IMG/VR virus record: IMGVR_UViG_3300027508_000024
Coordinates: 1 to 34,405 of that record
DNA: 34,405 bases
Strand: one strand, 5' to 3'
DNA from: a virus
In this document: positions 19,112 to 28,814 of the stretch, piece by piece
Numbering within the stretch: position 1 is the stretch's first letter
Layout: each line of letters begins with the position of its first letter
Notes under the pieces: generated by a model
The model's input: the letters and a program-made list of their open reading frames with translations, nothing else
What the model was told of the DNA's origin: nothing
The model's database searches: none
Translations under genes and position numbers: made by a program

Positions 19112-19342
19112 ATGACAACACAAACTATGCAAACCATTGAAAACATTAAGGAAAAGGCTGAAGTGGCTGGCTACACCATCACCGATGTTGCTCGTCATGC
19201 TGGCTTTCACCCTGCTCAAGTCTCCCGATACGCCACAGGTAAAACCATACCACTTGTCACCACCATCAGGCGGTTAGATGAGTCGGTGAATTCCCTGATT
19301 CAGGCTCGTTTTAAGGCCATCAGAGGGCTTCTCAATGACTAG
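19112..19342 (+). CDS. Cro/C1-type (XRE) helix-turn-helix regulator, 76 aa
   Basis: A small DNA-binding protein with the XRE helix-turn-helix in residues about 18-47 (YTITDVARHAGFHPAQVSRY, ATGKTIP). An upstream in-frame TTG at 19073 falls inside the -35 of the promoter, so the ATG at 19112 is preferred. No ribosome site is seen, which with the close start site suggests leaderless translation, as for lambda cI from PRM. It faces a leftward promoter across a 150-base control region, as expected for a Cro-like switch. Without an integrase in the window it is more likely an early-gene regulator than a lysogeny repressor. Confidence 0.8.
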   Translation: MTTQTMQTIENIKEKAEVAGYTITDVARHAGFHPAQVSRYATGKTIPLVTTIRRLDESVNSLIQARFKAIRGLLND

Positions 19343-22520: not shown

Positions 22521-23339
22521 ATGAATGAGTTGGCTTTATTCGCAGGCGCTGGTGGAGGAATACTCGGCGGCAAGTTGCTTGGATGGAGAACAGTCTGTGC
22601 AGTCGAGTGGGAAGCCTATCCAGCAAGCGTATTGTGCGCCCGACAAAATGATGGTCTTCTCCCGCCTTTCCCGATTTGGGATGACGTACAAACCTTTGAC
22701 GGAAAACCTTGGCGAGGAATTGTTGATGTCGTATCTGGCGGGTTTCCATGCCAGGACATCAGTGCCGCAGGAAAAGGCGCAGGAATTGACGGAGAACGAT
22801 CAGGGATGTGGTCAGAAATGGCTCGCATCATTCGTGAAGTACGACCCAGATTCGTGTTCGTGGAAAACTCACCAATGCTCACTTCTAGGGGACTTGGACG
22901 AGTTCTCGGAGACTTGGCCTCAATGGGGTTTGATGCGAAATGGGGAGTGTTGGGAGCAGCTAACGTTGGAGCAAACCATCAGAGGGACAGAATCTGGATT
23001 GTCGGAACAAACATGGCCTACCCCAAGATGTCAAATGACCCGGCCAGTAAAAATCAGATTGGACATAGAAAAGGGTCACAAGGGCAATTTAGAGGAAGTT
23101 GTGGCATTGAGGGAGAAGTTTACAACCCCAACAGCACACAATTCAAAAGAAACGAATGCGCCGAGCGAAATGAACAGAAATACTCCTACGCTTGCGGCTC
23201 AAGCTGGTGGAAAATTGAACCCGATGTGGGTCGAGTGGCTGATGGGGTGGCCGCTAGGGTGGACAGACTTAAAGCCATTGGAAATGGACAAGTCCCATTA
23301 TGTGCTGCAACAGCATGGCGAATACTCACAGAAAGATAA
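22521..23339 (+). CDS. DNA C5-cytosine methyltransferase
   Basis: A 272-residue enzyme with all main C5 motifs: FAGAGG (7-12, SAM binding), PCQ at 76-78 with the catalytic Cys, ENS at 115-117 (usually ENV), QRDRIW near 154-159, and GNGQVP at 254-259. The target-recognition part (about 163-240) is low in recognisable sequence. The same DNA carries a 272-residue ORF in another frame (22525-23343) over nearly its whole length. An in-frame TTG at 22509 is possible; the ATG at 22521 is preferred. It is probably used for protection against host restriction. Confidence 0.9.
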   Translation: MNELALFAGAGGGILGGKLLGWRTVCAVEWEAYPASVLCARQNDGLLPPFPIWDDVQTFDGKPWRGIVDVVSGGFPCQDISAAGKGAGIDGERSGMWSEMARIIREVRPRFVFVENSPMLTSRGLGRVLGDLASMGFDAKWGVLGAANVGANHQRDRIWIVGTNMAYPKMSNDPASKNQIGHRKGSQGQFRGSCGIEGEVYNPNSTQFKRNECAERNEQKYSYACGSSWWKIEPDVGRVADGVAARVDRLKAIGNGQVPLCAATAWRILTER

Positions 23340-23343: not shown

Positions 23344-25395
23344 ATGTCAGCACAACAAATAGCCACTACCTTGGGCAATGCAAAAAAGGTAGGCAATGGT
23401 TACCTAGCATCATGCCCCGTACCCGATCACGGTCAAGGTAAGGGAGATAAGCATCCATCCCTATCCATCACCGAATCAGTTGACGGGAATTACCTCTTCA
23501 AATGTCACGGTGGCTGCGACCAGCACACAGTGTTCAGCACCATCAAGGACATGGGCATACTCCCGCAGCTACCAGATAGACCTGAATACCTGTCCAGCAT
23601 CAAGCCGATATCTAACAGTTCACAGGCCACAACCCCGACAGTCATGACACTTGAGCATGAATGGCATTACGTTGATGAGGACGGCATCTCCCTCTTTCTC
23701 AAGCAAAGATATAAGACCAATGACATCAAAGGAAAGACATATAAGACCTTACGAGTCATGCCCGATGGCAGTCGAGTAGGCAAGTTAGGTGACTGCCGCA
23801 TCATCCCCTACCGACTCCCCGAACTGCGACAAGCAATTGCCGATGGCAGAGTCATATATATAACTGAGGGTGAGAAAGCGGCAGATAGCTTATGCAGTCT
23901 TGGGGTAGTGGCGACCACCTCTCACGCTGGTGCTGGTGGTTGGAATCAGGACTTGAACCAGTACTTTGCTGGCGCAAATGTCGTGATAGTTCCCGACAAT
24001 GATGCCGCTGGATGGGGTTACGCCCATAAGATTGTTGAGTCCTTACTTGGATCAGGTAGCACAAAGAGCATCAGGGTCTTGGATTTACCCCTTACTCAAC
24101 CCAAGGAAGATGCCTATGAGTGGGTCAATAGGTATGACGGTTCAAGGTCGCTGTTGGCACAACTGGCAAAAGCCTGTCCTATCGTCAAGTCTGTAGAAGA
24201 TGTATGGCAACCATCAAGGCTGCATGATTATGTGCCTGAGCCACAACCAAAAGAATCTAGTGCTACCGTCAAAGAAGCAAAACCCTCCAGATTACTGGTC
24301 GAGTCTTGGGACTCAATTAAAGATGAGCCAGTTGAGTGGCTCGTGCAGTCAATTGTCCCGAAGAAAGCATTTGTAGCTCTCTACGCACCCCCTGCCTCAT
24401 ACAAGTCATTCATCTCCCTTGATTTGGCAGAGGCGATTGCAACAGGCAGAGATTGGATGGGTTACAAGATACCCAAGAAAGGCGCAGTCTTATATATATG
24501 TGGTGAGGGTCATGGCGGTATGGGCGCAAGGGTGAAGGCTTGCAAGATACAGAATCAAAGTCCAGATGGCGCAAACCTGTACATCATCAGGGCGCAACTC
24601 AACCTGAGATCAAGTCCCGAAGACTTCATAGAACTACTCAACGCAATCAATGACCTGATAGCTGAGATAGGTGAACCTTTAGAGATCATCATCCTTGATA
24701 CCCTGATGCGTATGTCTGGCGGTGGATTTAACGAGAACAGTTCTGAAGACATGGGTGCATTCATCACCCAAGCAGGAAAACTCCAAGAACTCTTCGAATG
24801 TGCCTTGATGGTAATTCATCATAGTGGTAAGGACATCAGTAAGGGCTTGCGAGGTCATAGCTCCTTGCTAGGTGCTGTAGACACTGAACTTGAGATACAG
24901 CGGCAGGATTCAGTTATCAACTCAGCAGATTCAAGCGTCATAGGTAACGCAATCTTGACCGTTAGCAAACAAAAAGACGGTGCAGATAGCATCCAGATCG
25001 GCATTGAAATCGTGCTGGTGGAGATTGGAACATCAGACCTTGGGTTTGAAATTACCACCTCATTAGCCATCAGGCACAACCCCGACATCGCAAATGACAA
25101 GCCTAAAGGGTCTAAAAACAACTCAGGTAGCGGCAACAATCAGCGGATTGAGATGGATTCGTTAATGAAAGTGATTAAGTCTAAAGGAACATACAGTGAA
25201 GTAGATGGTACTAGTAGGTATGGAGTCAGTTTGGACGATTGGAGAGCCGAATTCTGGTCTATGAAAGGGTGTACTGAGGATGATAAGACGGCCTTTAAGA
25301 AAGCATGGCTTCGTGCTAGGGAGCGTCTTGTTAGCGTAAATAAGATTGTCATTGGGTCAAATTGGGTTTGGTTGAAATCCAGTTTGGATAATTAG
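23344..25395 (+). CDS. Bifunctional primase-helicase
   Basis: A 683-residue protein. The N-terminal zinc module has C24, H29, C54 and C58 (CPVPDH and FKCHGGCD). A TOPRIM primase core follows (ITEGEKAADS near 173 and VPDNDAAGWG near 217). A RecA-like helicase starts around 340 with a Walker A-like APPASYKS, ICGEGHGGM, the Walker B-type IIILDTLMRMSGG and VIHHSGKD. The layout resembles T7 gp4-style primase-helicases and RepA-like helicases. The Walker A lacks the usual second Gly but keeps Lys-Ser, as in some phage relatives. It would unwind and prime phage DNA. Confidence 0.85.
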   Translation: MSAQQIATTLGNAKKVGNGYLASCPVPDHGQGKGDKHPSLSITESVDGNYLFKCHGGCDQHTVFSTIKDMGILPQLPDRPEYLSSIKPISNSSQATTPTVMTLEHEWHYVDEDGISLFLKQRYKTNDIKGKTYKTLRVMPDGSRVGKLGDCRIIPYRLPELRQAIADGRVIYITEGEKAADSLCSLGVVATTSHAGAGGWNQDLNQYFAGANVVIVPDNDAAGWGYAHKIVESLLGSGSTKSIRVLDLPLTQPKEDAYEWVNRYDGSRSLLAQLAKACPIVKSVEDVWQPSRLHDYVPEPQPKESSATVKEAKPSRLLVESWDSIKDEPVEWLVQSIVPKKAFVALYAPPASYKSFISLDLAEAIATGRDWMGYKIPKKGAVLYICGEGHGGMGARVKACKIQNQSPDGANLYIIRAQLNLRSSPEDFIELLNAINDLIAEIGEPLEIIILDTLMRMSGGGFNENSSEDMGAFITQAGKLQELFECALMVIHHSGKDISKGLRGHSSLLGAVDTELEIQRQDSVINSADSSVIGNAILTVSKQKDGADSIQIGIEIVLVEIGTSDLGFEITTSLAIRHNPDIANDKPKGSKNNSGSGNNQRIEMDSLMKVIKSKGTYSEVDGTSRYGVSLDDWRAEFWSMKGCTEDDKTAFKKAWLRARERLVSVNKIVIGSNWVWLKSSLDN

Positions 25396-25415: not shown

Positions 25416-25529
25416 GACAAACGAGACAAACAGGGACAAATGTCCCAAATGTCTTTTCGAGGAGATGGGGACAAACCACCTCTTGTCTATAAACAAGAGG
25501 TTTGTCTCCTGTCCCTTTGTCTCTTTGTC
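25416..25529. repeat. Array of GACAAA motifs in symmetric inverted arrangement
   Basis: GACAAA occurs on the plus strand at 25416, 25425, 25435 and 25470, and its complement TTTGTC at 25501, 25516 and 25524. The central part folds as CCTCTTGT/ACAAGAGG with an outer GACAAA/TTTGTC pairing. This non-coding stretch after the primase-helicase looks like an iteron or operator region. Confidence 0.7.
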
Positions 25530-25550
25530 GTTTTTGAAAGGAAATTGAAA

Positions 25551-26204
25551 ATGGTTAAATCACGGTTAAGAAAAGATGTTCCTAAAGTTGAGATTAAAAG
25601 GTATGAGCCAACTACTTGGGATATTCAAGCCAGTGCGGTTTTGGTTGAACTTGAGTCAAGGAAAGAGGAACATCACCAGAAATGGGGTTGTGAGAGATTG
25701 ATTACTTTAGTTGACAGTGAGTTTAGGGAGAGGTTTTGGGGTCAGATGGCTAGGGTTTGGGATGCCATCGATCACAAAGACATTGAACGGCTGCGTAAAG
25801 CAATTGCAGGGATGGTCAAAGGTTATGACCATCTAGAGAAATGGGGTGAAGATAATGAGATCAACCCAAGCCCCACAAACATCAGATTCGTTGAATGGAA
25901 AACTCAATCAGGTCAGATCATGGCAGTTACAGAAACGATAAATGATTGCATTGATTTGCAAAAGCTACGCAAAGACCTAACCATCTGGACTCTGGAAGAG
26001 TTTGAGGCCATCATCAATGAGCCAGCAATCCAGTTCATCATCAAGGCCAAAGCGTTTGACCCAACCGCACAGGTCAAGAGGTTCAAAGCTGGTGATGACT
26101 TTGGCAAAGGCTCAGGCTTTGACGATATGGTCGATGACCTTGAACCTATTTACGGCGGTGGTGATGCGCCGAAGATGTTTAACCTACCGCCAAAGAGGAA
26201 GTAA
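25551..26204 (+). CDS. Hypothetical protein, 217 aa
   Basis: A basic start (MVKSRLRKDVPKVEIKR) is followed by mostly helical charged sequence (SAVLVELESRKEEHHQKWGC, WGQMARVWDAIDHKDIERLR) and an acidic end (FDDMVDDLEPIYGGG). A longer frame from 25440 would run through the repeat array and lacks a ribosome site. The ATG at 25551 has GAAAGGAAA upstream. No domain is recognised. It follows the primase-helicase and precedes the origin-like region, so a replication-linked role is a guess. Confidence 0.65.
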   Translation: MVKSRLRKDVPKVEIKRYEPTTWDIQASAVLVELESRKEEHHQKWGCERLITLVDSEFRERFWGQMARVWDAIDHKDIERLRKAIAGMVKGYDHLEKWGEDNEINPSPTNIRFVEWKTQSGQIMAVTETINDCIDLQKLRKDLTIWTLEEFEAIINEPAIQFIIKAKAFDPTAQVKRFKAGDDFGKGSGFDDMVDDLEPIYGGGDAPKMFNLPPKRK

Positions 26205-26440
26205 TGGCGAGTCCTCAGATCAACACTGTCCAGTTCAGGCGGAAGCTGACTGAGGAACAAAGGACAATCCTATTGTGTGCCGGCAAAGGGAACATCACCA
26301 ATGGCTTTAAGAATGCCTTGGACTGCTACGCCATCTTATGGGAACTTGGATACCGCCCTAGAAACGATTTATATGATTTCTTAGGGGTAGATAAGGGAGA
26401 GCCATATAAACCTGTTGTAGGCGATTCTGACGAGGATTAG
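26204..26440 (+). CDS. Hypothetical protein, 78 aa
   Basis: A small protein with FRRKLTEEQRTILLCAGKGN and LDCYAILWELGYRPRND, ending in an acidic SDED. I recall the TEEQRTILLCAGKGxIxxGF pattern from small proteins of other phages, function unknown. It overlaps the previous gene by one base and is last of the replication-side genes. Confidence 0.65.
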   Translation: MASPQINTVQFRRKLTEEQRTILLCAGKGNITNGFKNALDCYAILWELGYRPRNDLYDFLGVDKGEPYKPVVGDSDED

Positions 26441-26601: not shown

Positions 26602-26863
26602 TTATCCACAGGTTATCCACAGATCGGAGGGCAAGTTATCCACATATGCACAGTCTGGTTGCAGTTTGCATCTCAGAATGCCCAAATCAGTAATACTTTC
26701 TATGATTTTGAGTTAACATAATGGACATTGTATTAAATGGATTTTGTCAGCCGTTTGTAAGCGTCTAGAAAAACACTAGCAAAATCAACAGCTTACAGAA
26801 GTTATCCACACTATCCACAGTTTCCTGTGGATAACTCGCATCTGGCAATTTGCCTGTGGATAA
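26602..26863. other. Cluster of DnaA boxes (candidate phage origin of replication)
   Basis: TTATCCACA, the consensus DnaA box, occurs on the plus strand at 26602, 26613, 26636 and 26802, a one-mismatch copy (CTATCCACA) at 26811, and the complement TGTGGATAA at 26826 and 26855. TATCCACAG and CTGTGGATA at 26812-26833 also form a nine-pair hairpin with a TTTC loop. An AT-rich stretch lies between the two groups. This is the build of a DnaA-dependent bacterial or plasmid origin. Confidence 0.75.
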
Positions 26864-26871
26864 CTTTCGAT

Positions 26872-26927
26872 GGGGGGGGAGGGGGTGCGGTCGGTCGGTC
26901 AAAGTTGTGGGAGCATCCGCCCCCCTC
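26872..26927. repeat. G-rich tract, GGTC triplet repeat and hairpin
   Basis: G8-A-G5 (26872-26885) is followed by CGGTCGGTCGGTC. GAGGGGG (26879-26885) and CGG (26888-26890) can pair with CCG and CCCCCTC (26917-26927). A structured or G-quadruplex-forming element next to the DnaA boxes is plausible. Confidence 0.5.
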
Positions 26928-26986: not shown

Positions 26987-27057
26987 GTTGGCGCAGGGAG
27001 TTCCGAATTAGTAATTAGATAACCTTAAGGGAAATCATTCGGGTACTATGCGCCAAC
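26987..27057. repeat. Inverted repeat GTTGGCGCA / TGCGCCAAC
   Basis: GTTGGCGCA (26987-26995) and TGCGCCAAC (27049-27057) are perfect nine-base inverted repeats with a 53-base gap, about 75 bases before the small terminase start. They may be paired protein sites, for example for terminase or a regulator. Confidence 0.55.
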
Positions 27058-27133
27058 GCTGATAAATCTACCATATCAAGCCACAATTTGCTATAGTCCC
27101 CACCTATCACGCCCATAACGCACAAGGATAATC

Positions 27134-27562
27134 GTGAAGATAGAACAGATTGACGGCATCCAAGACGAGCCACAGGCGCAGCTAGAGAAGAAGAAAGCTG
27201 GCAGACCTAAAGGTATTTACGGTTTAAAGCGTCAGATACAGGAGTACGCAAGGAATCCTGAGCTTGCGTTGCCCAAGACTGACAGCCAGAGAATCAAGGA
27301 CTTGAAGGATATGCTTATCAGGTCGAGTGGTAAGGATGTTGTGGAGAAGATGATTTCAATTGCGTTGAACGACAACCACCCTGCTCAGATGGCGGCTATC
27401 AAGATGTGTGTGGACAGGACACTTCCTATATCCATGTTTGACAAGGATAAAGGCCAGAGGAGTGCAGTCAACATCACAATCACTGGCATAGGCGCACCTA
27501 CAGTAGAGGCAACTACGATTGATCCAGACGACATCCAAGACGTAGAGGCTAAGAATGGCTGA
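27134..27562 (+). CDS. Terminase small subunit
   Basis: A 142-residue basic protein with AGRPKGIYGLKRQI near the N-terminus, a DNA-binding-type segment, then helices (DVVEKMISIALNDNHPAQMA) and an acidic C-terminus that could contact the large subunit. The GTG start has AAGGA eight bases upstream. It overlaps the large terminase by 8 bases and lies immediately next to the origin-like region, where a packaging site is commonly located. The family call is from position and composition. Confidence 0.75.
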   Translation: MKIEQIDGIQDEPQAQLEKKKAGRPKGIYGLKRQIQEYARNPELALPKTDSQRIKDLKDMLIRSSGKDVVEKMISIALNDNHPAQMAAIKMCVDRTLPISMFDKDKGQRSAVNITITGIGAPTVEATTIDPDDIQDVEAKNG

Positions 27563-28814
27563 CTTGAACTTTGCGCTCCTCCCTTGGCAACAGGAAGTCT
27601 ACGCCGACAAGACGAGGTTCAAGGTTGTCGTAGCTGGACGGCGGTGCGGTAAGTCTAGGTTAGCTGTCACGACACTATTAATAGAGGGGTTGAGTTGCCC
27701 TGCTGGTAGTGCGGTGCTATACGTTGCCCCTACCCAAGGTCAGGCTAGGCAGATCATTTGGGATGTACTCTTGGACATTGGCAGGGAGATCATTCAGTCT
27801 AGCCATGTCAATAATATGGAAGTGACCTTGATTAACGGCGCAAAGATATATGTGAGGGGATCAGACAGACCTGATACCTTACGGGGTGTCAGCTTGACTT
27901 ATGCGGTGTTGGATGAGGTAGCTGACATTAAGCCTGAGACTTGGGAACAGGTGATTCGTGCGTCACTGAGTGATAAAAAGGGTCGGTGCATGATGATCGG
28001 GACTCCCAAGGGTAGGAACTGGTTCTACGATTTGTACAACTTGGGTCAGGATGGTAGTGATCCTGATTGGAAGTCGTGGCACTTCACTACCAAAGACAAC
28101 CCCCTGATAGACCCTGATGAGATTGAGTCTGCCAAGAAGACCCTGAGTTCCTTTGCTTTCAAGCAGGAATACCTTGCCAGTTTTGACAATGCTGGCTCTG
28201 ACGTTTTTAAAGAAGAATGGATTAAATATGGAGAAGAACCTGAACATGGCTCGTACTACATTGCTGTCGATCTGGCAGGGTTTGAAGAAGTGGCTAGACA
28301 AGCTGCTAATTCCAAGAAAAGGCTAGATCAGACTGCCATTGCTGTTGTTAAGGTAACAGAAGATGGCAAATGGTTTGTTAAAGAGATTGTTTACGGGCGG
28401 TGGGACATCAGGGAAACTGCGGCTACGATCCTGTTGAAGATGCGGGAATACCGACCTTTGAGCATTGGAATTGAGCGTGGAGCATTAAAAAACGCAGTTT
28501 TGCCGTATTTGAGTGACTTAATGCGTAAAAATAATGTATATTCACACATAGTTGACTTGACGCACGGCAACAGGAAAAAGACTGACAGGATTATCTGGAG
28601 TCTCCAAGGACGGTTTGAGCATGGGCGTATTGTGCTGAACTCTGAGGAAGATTGGGATGAATTCAAAGATCAACTCTTGATGTTTCCAGCCCTTGGTGTT
28701 CATGATGACTTGCCTGATGCCCTTTCCTACATTGACCAACTGGCTGTAACCTCATACTTTGTTGATGACCAAGAAGATGAGTGGGAGCCTCTAGATATTA
28801 TTTCGGGGAATTAA
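27555..28814 (+). CDS. terL: Terminase large subunit (packaging ATPase-nuclease)
   Basis: A 419-residue motor protein. Walker A is AGRRCGKS (27-34); Walker B is in TYAVLDEVADI (about 115-122); GTPKGRNW follows as the coupling motif. The C-terminal nuclease keeps acidic residues in IAVDLAGFE, IGIERG and VHDDLPDAL. It pumps DNA through the portal and cuts it from the concatemer. It is the best gene for placing this phage in a phylogeny. It ends directly before the portal ATG. Confidence 0.95.
   Translation: MADLNFALLPWQQEVYADKTRFKVVVAGRRCGKSRLAVTTLLIEGLSCPAGSAVLYVAPTQGQARQIIWDVLLDIGREIIQSSHVNNMEVTLINGAKIYVRGSDRPDTLRGVSLTYAVLDEVADIKPETWEQVIRASLSDKKGRCMMIGTPKGRNWFYDLYNLGQDGSDPDWKSWHFTTKDNPLIDPDEIESAKKTLSSFAFKQEYLASFDNAGSDVFKEEWIKYGEEPEHGSYYIAVDLAGFEEVARQAANSKKRLDQTAIAVVKVTEDGKWFVKEIVYGRWDIRETAATILLKMREYRPLSIGIERGALKNAVLPYLSDLMRKNNVYSHIVDLTHGNRKKTDRIIWSLQGRFEHGRIVLNSEEDWDEFKDQLLMFPALGVHDDLPDALSYIDQLAVTSYFVDDQEDEWEPLDIISGN

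Follow-up and report, generated by a model that had tools for sequence, protein, structure and literature searches.

Why does a freshwater tailed phage carry a cluster of DnaA boxes between its replication genes and its terminase genes? In the window, by which I mean the whole viral stretch of 34,405 nucleotides that was analysed, six perfect boxes (TTATCCACA) were found at 26602-26610 (box 1, + strand), 26613-26621 (box 2, +), 26636-26644 (box 3, +), 26802-26810 (box 4, +), 26826-26834 (box 6, −), and 26855-26863 (box 7, −). Box 5 (CTATCCACA, 26811-26819, +) has one mismatch. No further perfect box exists elsewhere in the window, and second-order Markov sequences have 0.18 perfect boxes per window, with at most one in 262 bp. 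The cluster at 26602-26863 exceeds chance by far, and the seven boxes in 262 bases reported in a preliminary description were reproduced at their exact positions. The same description had noted a hairpin and an AT-rich stretch. The inverted repeat is real (26800-26810 and 26826-26836, arms of 11 bp that are 15 nt apart), yet it is a simple by-product of DnaA boxes opposing each other. The AT-rich stretch is there at about 26680-26760 but is moderate (68-70% AT, with a maximum of 70% per 50 bp); neither a strongly AT-rich unwinding element nor a DnaA-trio run was found in the box region. A GC-skew check proposed for 26.6 kb showed no switch, the signal being dominated by gene orientation. The answer that I favour, with a probability of roughly 60%, is that the region is a DnaA/IHF origin of a circularising phage genome combined with a plasmid-type (psi-type) XerCD resolution site.

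The account based on the boxes was incomplete, as two elements lying between them had been overlooked. In an alignment of 22 array-keeping sequences, the best conserved piece besides the boxes is gTTAACATAATGgacaTTGTaTtAA, which reads ATTTAATACAA-TGTCCA-TTATGTTAACT on the opposite strand. This is a predicted XerCD site of 28 bp (26711-26738, − strand), with a putative 11-bp XerC arm (ATTTAATACAA), the centre TGTCCA, and a putative 11-bp XerD arm (TTATGTTAACT) whose inner bases are conserved. I scored it with a dif profile made of 26 published beta- and gammaproteobacterial sites (PMC2731167). The site scored 20.1 and 18.3 bits in the two orientations, while the runner-up in the window reached 8.4 bits and the maxima of 5-kb Markov sequences were 4.4 ± 2.7 bits. 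Every boxed relative covering the place has the Xer site (12.9-25 bits). The second element is an IHF consensus site, AATCAACAGCTTA (WATCAANNNNTTR), at 26783-26795 (+ strand), for which the chance expectation is about 0.011 per 150 bp.

The IHF site is conserved in place: all close loci of the window clade that cover it have it at 71-72 bp from the Xer core start, and the divergent loci L058 and L070 deviate from this spacing. Box 1 has a conserved position at −109 from the core. Box 2, at −98, is shared by most clade members and a third lineage, and box 3 is at −75, where other lineages have boxes at −72 to −74. Boxes 4 and 6 came from the box scan, box 5 is kept by some relatives, and only some relatives have box 7. 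A G-tract, GGGGGGGGAGGGGG (26872-26885, +), ends the array, both in relatives with boxes and in those without. The order and spacing of the elements are conserved in nearly all relatives with sequence across the whole array. Farther downstream, only some relatives (e.g. L009 and L012) have a stretch bounded by GTTGGCGCA and TGCGCCAAC (about 26990-27066 in the window), which resembles a small insertion or hairpin element ahead of the small terminase gene.

Could the conserved core simply be a promoter? A sigma70-like pair with 17-bp spacing, TTGAGT-17-TATTAA, can be read at about 26708-26736, and it might drive late genes under the control of DnaA and IHF. However, conservation is highest in what would be the spacer, which coincides with the XerD arm, and the −35-like element is not kept in L004-L013. 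I regard a promoter as extremely improbable.

The array sits in a 693-bp gap with replication genes on one side and terminase genes on the other. Upstream, on the + strand, are a primase-helicase of 683 aa (TOPRIM/RepA-like AAA_25; 23344-25395), a conserved module protein of 217 aa from its likely start (25551-26204, within a listed ORF of 25440-26204), and a small protein of 78 aa (26204-26440), which is the last gene ahead of the non-coding region. Downstream, on the same strand, are a probable terminase small subunit (27134-27562), assigned by position only, and the terminase large subunit TerL (27555-28814), which was the query for collecting relatives. The structure model of the 217-aa protein has a pLDDT of 65 and no PDB match at E ≤ 0.001. 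DNA polymerase, integrase, and partition genes were not recognised among the proteins scanned. For this region, no named phage or plasmid showed DNA similarity, and a tRNA/Rfam search gave nothing. Elsewhere in the window, a methyltransferase segment (22521-22955) is 91.7% identical to the Manatee Spring phage records MW202462 and MW202544, which have no other megablast match to the window, indicating recent gene exchange.

Is the array tied to the neighbouring replication genes? I compared relatives whose TerL is 87-100% identical and whose upstream sequence spans at least 4 kb, and counted L074, which has one isolated box far upstream, among the boxless ones. The primase-helicase always accompanies the box array: it is present in 17/17 boxed relatives and in 0/17 boxless relatives (Fisher, 8.6e-10 with kinship ignored, the sequences being related and not independent events). 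Two of the 17 boxed relatives have a primase-helicase that is 36% identical, together with fewer boxes and an Xer site. The boxless relatives encode instead DUF1376, a Sak-type annealing protein, a YqaJ nuclease, and a beta-clamp-like protein. In 19 of the 20 boxless relatives checked, the slot ahead of the shared G-tract is filled by one to four copies of a palindrome, AGTAAGTGCTTACT (up to two mismatches allowed), which was found neither in boxed relatives nor downstream. Some boxless relatives (L051 and L064) retain an Xer-like site. Upstream of TerL in L015, L016, L030, L036, L049, and L050, which are likewise boxless, AGTAAGTGCTTACT is accompanied by Fur-box-like palindromes that match TGAGAATGATTCTCA with up to 3 mismatches; L004, L012, and L037 each have one comparable site close to the array.

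Among relatives with about 90% identical TerL, the replication module and its array thus look as if they had been exchanged together. Such an exchange of putative initiator-binding arrays along with the replication genes is what origins would be expected to show. The preliminary description had regarded an absence of the boxes from close relatives as an argument against its proposal; many relatives do lack them, but these are the relatives that carry another replication module. It had also left two roles open, an origin opened by host DnaA or titration of DnaA, and the former is now better supported, as the array is tied to one replication module. Titration would mean that the boxes, with IHF, sequester or inactivate host DnaA and halt host replication. 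The chromosomal datA locus likewise pairs DnaA boxes with an IHF site, and lytic T7-like phages such as P483 have box arrays with no Xer site. However, seven boxes are few unless the phage copy number is high, and titration predicts neither the linkage to one replication module, with other repeats taking the place of the array where the module differs, nor the fixed Xer/IHF geometry with a conserved Xer core inside the array. Titration as the main role was rejected on the module linkage, and I consider it very unlikely. The array of Escherichia phage P483 (L244, KP090453), a lytic T7-like Berlinvirus, consists of five perfect and three one-mismatch boxes in ~130 bp at about 37256-37381. Its relatives nasanit and VB_Ship_A7 share this non-coding box array near the genome end. 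Arrays of this type have no Xer or IHF site and may be a true DnaA sink.

The predicted layout is found again in phages whose terminases are unrelated. A search with the box pattern yielded 79 viral loci. One group among them, at only 24% TerL identity, has box arrays, an Xer site AGTGCGTATAA-CACCCA-TTATGTTAAAT that scores even higher (26 bits), and an IHF site whose distance to the core start is 48 bp, and L085 has the same element order with the IHF site at 48 bp in reverse orientation. A pattern combining the XerD arm with the IHF site revealed further groups, one of which has a mostly 40-51% identical primase, a 28-46% identical 217-aa protein, and boxes whose distances from the core (about −98 and −74) agree with those in the window. 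The gaps between the XerD arm and the IHF site cluster at 29-31, 35-36, and 49-51, and at 59-60 in the window clade. When viral contigs were scanned with this pattern, a XerC arm was present in 58/80 and at least two boxes in 34/80 of the matches listed, which are partly non-independent. In the controls with a scrambled IHF site or a scrambled XerD arm, 1/80 and 0/80 of the matches listed had a XerC-like arm, none (0/80 and 0/80) had two or more boxes, and the gaps were scattered. The raw totals of Xer-IHF matches were rejected as evidence, since they are lower bounds for the controls too and only the composition of the matches is informative. Boxes and Xer site were absent from the stretches compared in MW202711, RHph_Y3_1, CRP-406, and Mae-JY30, which have related primases, and in MW202879.

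Box arrays of other kinds were also seen. L081, L082, L086, L088, L105, L115, L128, and L142, whose TerL is 54-56% identical, have 5-11 perfect boxes within 80-240 bp near the terminase genes and no recognisable Xer site. Box runs occur in PQ006258 (bajarodmic virus 162, 5.6 kb) and in MZ089777 (Microvirus mar31, 5.2 kb), in the latter at several places of the record.

What kind of Xer site is this? In PMC11724359 and PMC5357621, the recombination sites of cer and psi are described as two 11-bp arms around a centre of 6-8 bp, the XerD arm being better conserved, and PMC11724359 places the accessory DNA of such plasmid sites on the XerC side. The phage site resembles ColE1 cer and pSC101 psi in its arms and its centre; on its XerC side, the predicted IHF site and boxes 4-7 keep conserved positions and may act as accessory DNA. 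The psi site read from the pSC101 record NC_002056 is GGTGCGCGCAA-GATCCA-TTATGTTAAAC, and its centre has TCCA in common with the TGTCCA of the window. In contrast, cer and psi have ArgR or ArcA sites, in whose stead the phage has IHF and DnaA boxes; the best ARG box in the phage has 4 mismatches and the best ArcA site has 2. Because ArgR/ArcA sites are absent, I call the site psi-like and do not assign it to the ArgR/ArcA type.

This comparison raises another possibility. DnaA and IHF might stand in for ArgR/ArcA and PepA as accessory proteins of the Xer site, where they would restrict recombination to multimers or couple it to the replication state, with the origin lying elsewhere. Boxes and IHF keep fixed places around the Xer core in several lineages, which fits such a role, as does accessory DNA on the XerC side, which is the mode of cer and psi. 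However, the array follows the replication genes, giving way to other repeats where these differ, and Xer-IHF pairs without DnaA boxes exist: L262, L284, L298, and L302 have an Xer site and an IHF consensus with a gap of 29-30 but no boxes. The two halves may therefore serve separate functions, which also counts against the combined reading that I favour. A purely accessory role of DnaA and IHF seems quite unlikely.

Alternatively, the Xer core could be an attP at which host XerCD integrates the phage into dif, as in integrative mobile elements exploiting Xer (IMEX). IHF would then shape the attP arm, as in lambda, and the DnaA boxes would serve replication after infection. CTXphi, VGJphi, TLCphi, and GGI are, like this phage, mobile and integrase-less and have a dif-like site. 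A tyrosine integrase (PF00589) was found in 0/19 viral records, and the window has an XRE-type regulator at 19112-19342. Moreover, the XerC-side half of the centre, TGT, is identical to that of host dif, and the XerD arms of L058 and L070, TTATGTAAAGT, are identical to the arm seen most often in the candidate host family. A MAG contig with 82% TerL identity, annotated as 'uncultured beta proteobacterium', is weak host evidence. With the dif of Rhodoferax ferrireducens as query, no match was obtained in the candidate host family, and a general dif pattern gave one dif in most of its genomes.

On the other hand, the phage is a tailed dsDNA phage of which no integrated copy was found in the genomes searched, which may not include the true host. 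A search of 84,980 genomes for close TerL relatives gave one whole-phage MAG contig only, and 267 other genomes of the candidate host family gave none. The centre also differs from that of host dif on the XerD side. Dif centres in the candidate host family are mostly TGTATA or TGTGTA, while most of the 54 distinct phage Xer sites have CC(A) at the XerD-side centre bases and vary on the XerC side (TGT, CAT, CAC, TAC, TAT, or TCT) across phage lineages. A variable XerC-side centre is tolerated between identical copies, while integration into dif would favour a centre that matches dif; recombination of identical copies therefore fits better. Since no integrated copy was found and the centre is unlike dif, resolution is preferred, and integration at dif appears unlikely.

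For the combined origin and resolution site, I infer from the sequence binding by DnaA, IHF, and XerCD, origin activity, the outcome of resolution, and a circular intermediate, as follows. Host DnaA would occupy both box arrays, which would be brought into one complex by a bend that host IHF introduces between Xer core and right-hand array. The strands would open, and the phage primase-helicase would join in establishing forks. Recombination between sister copies by host XerC and XerD at the core would resolve multimers, the role that psi has in pSC101. It is conceivable, though doubtful, that DnaA, IHF, and XerCD form one joint complex in which the replication state, with DnaA bound or released, gates Xer recombination of phage copies; several unrelated lineages of tailed phages would then use such an initiator-gated Xer site.

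How does the proposed origin compare with known replicons? The pSC101 origin depends on host DnaA and IHF, and the phage would share with pSC101 an origin of this type and a 28-bp Xer site whose centre ends in TCCA. However, psi lies apart from the pSC101 origin and uses ArcA/PepA, while the phage Xer core sits between DnaA arrays; the same scan found 0 perfect DnaA boxes and 0 strict IHF consensus sites in the pSC101 record, and the phage has no pSC101-type RepA. Bacterial oriC resembles the phage array in having clustered boxes in both orientations and an IHF site, but the phage array lacks a clear unwinding element, encloses an Xer site, and adjoins primase-helicase and terminase genes. Phage P1 is a circular replicon whose origin has DnaA boxes, as proposed here, and is resolved by Cre-lox and not by XerCD. 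Unlike P1-type phage-plasmids, the phage has no ParA/ParB and no recognised P1-type RepA. ParA/ParB were found in 0/11 records, and stable plasmid maintenance is therefore not indicated. At least 50 bases at the end of the contig (34356-34405) are repeated near 1175 (about 1175-1225), and the genome is therefore probably circular or permuted, with a length of about 33 kb. Packaging redundancy would explain this recurring end as well as a circular extrachromosomal prophage would. The first 1.1 kb of the window may be an alternative allele or an assembly join.

Plasmids are known to have DnaA-box origins and Xer resolution sites, but their fixed composite in tailed phages is apparently undescribed; no description of the Xer-IHF-DnaA layout was found in the accessible parts of PMC2731167, PMC5357621, PMC11724359, PMC3861242, PMC2784084, and PMC7157519. 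The composite would offer a sequence signature for such abundant, uncultured tailed phages and make a coupling of DnaA and Xer directly testable. These results suggest that this freshwater phage may copy and tidy its circular DNA in a plasmid-like manner by host machinery. If true, many environmental phages would rely on the initiation and dimer-resolution machinery of their hosts, which would explain the upkeep of circular genomes in phages without an integrase.
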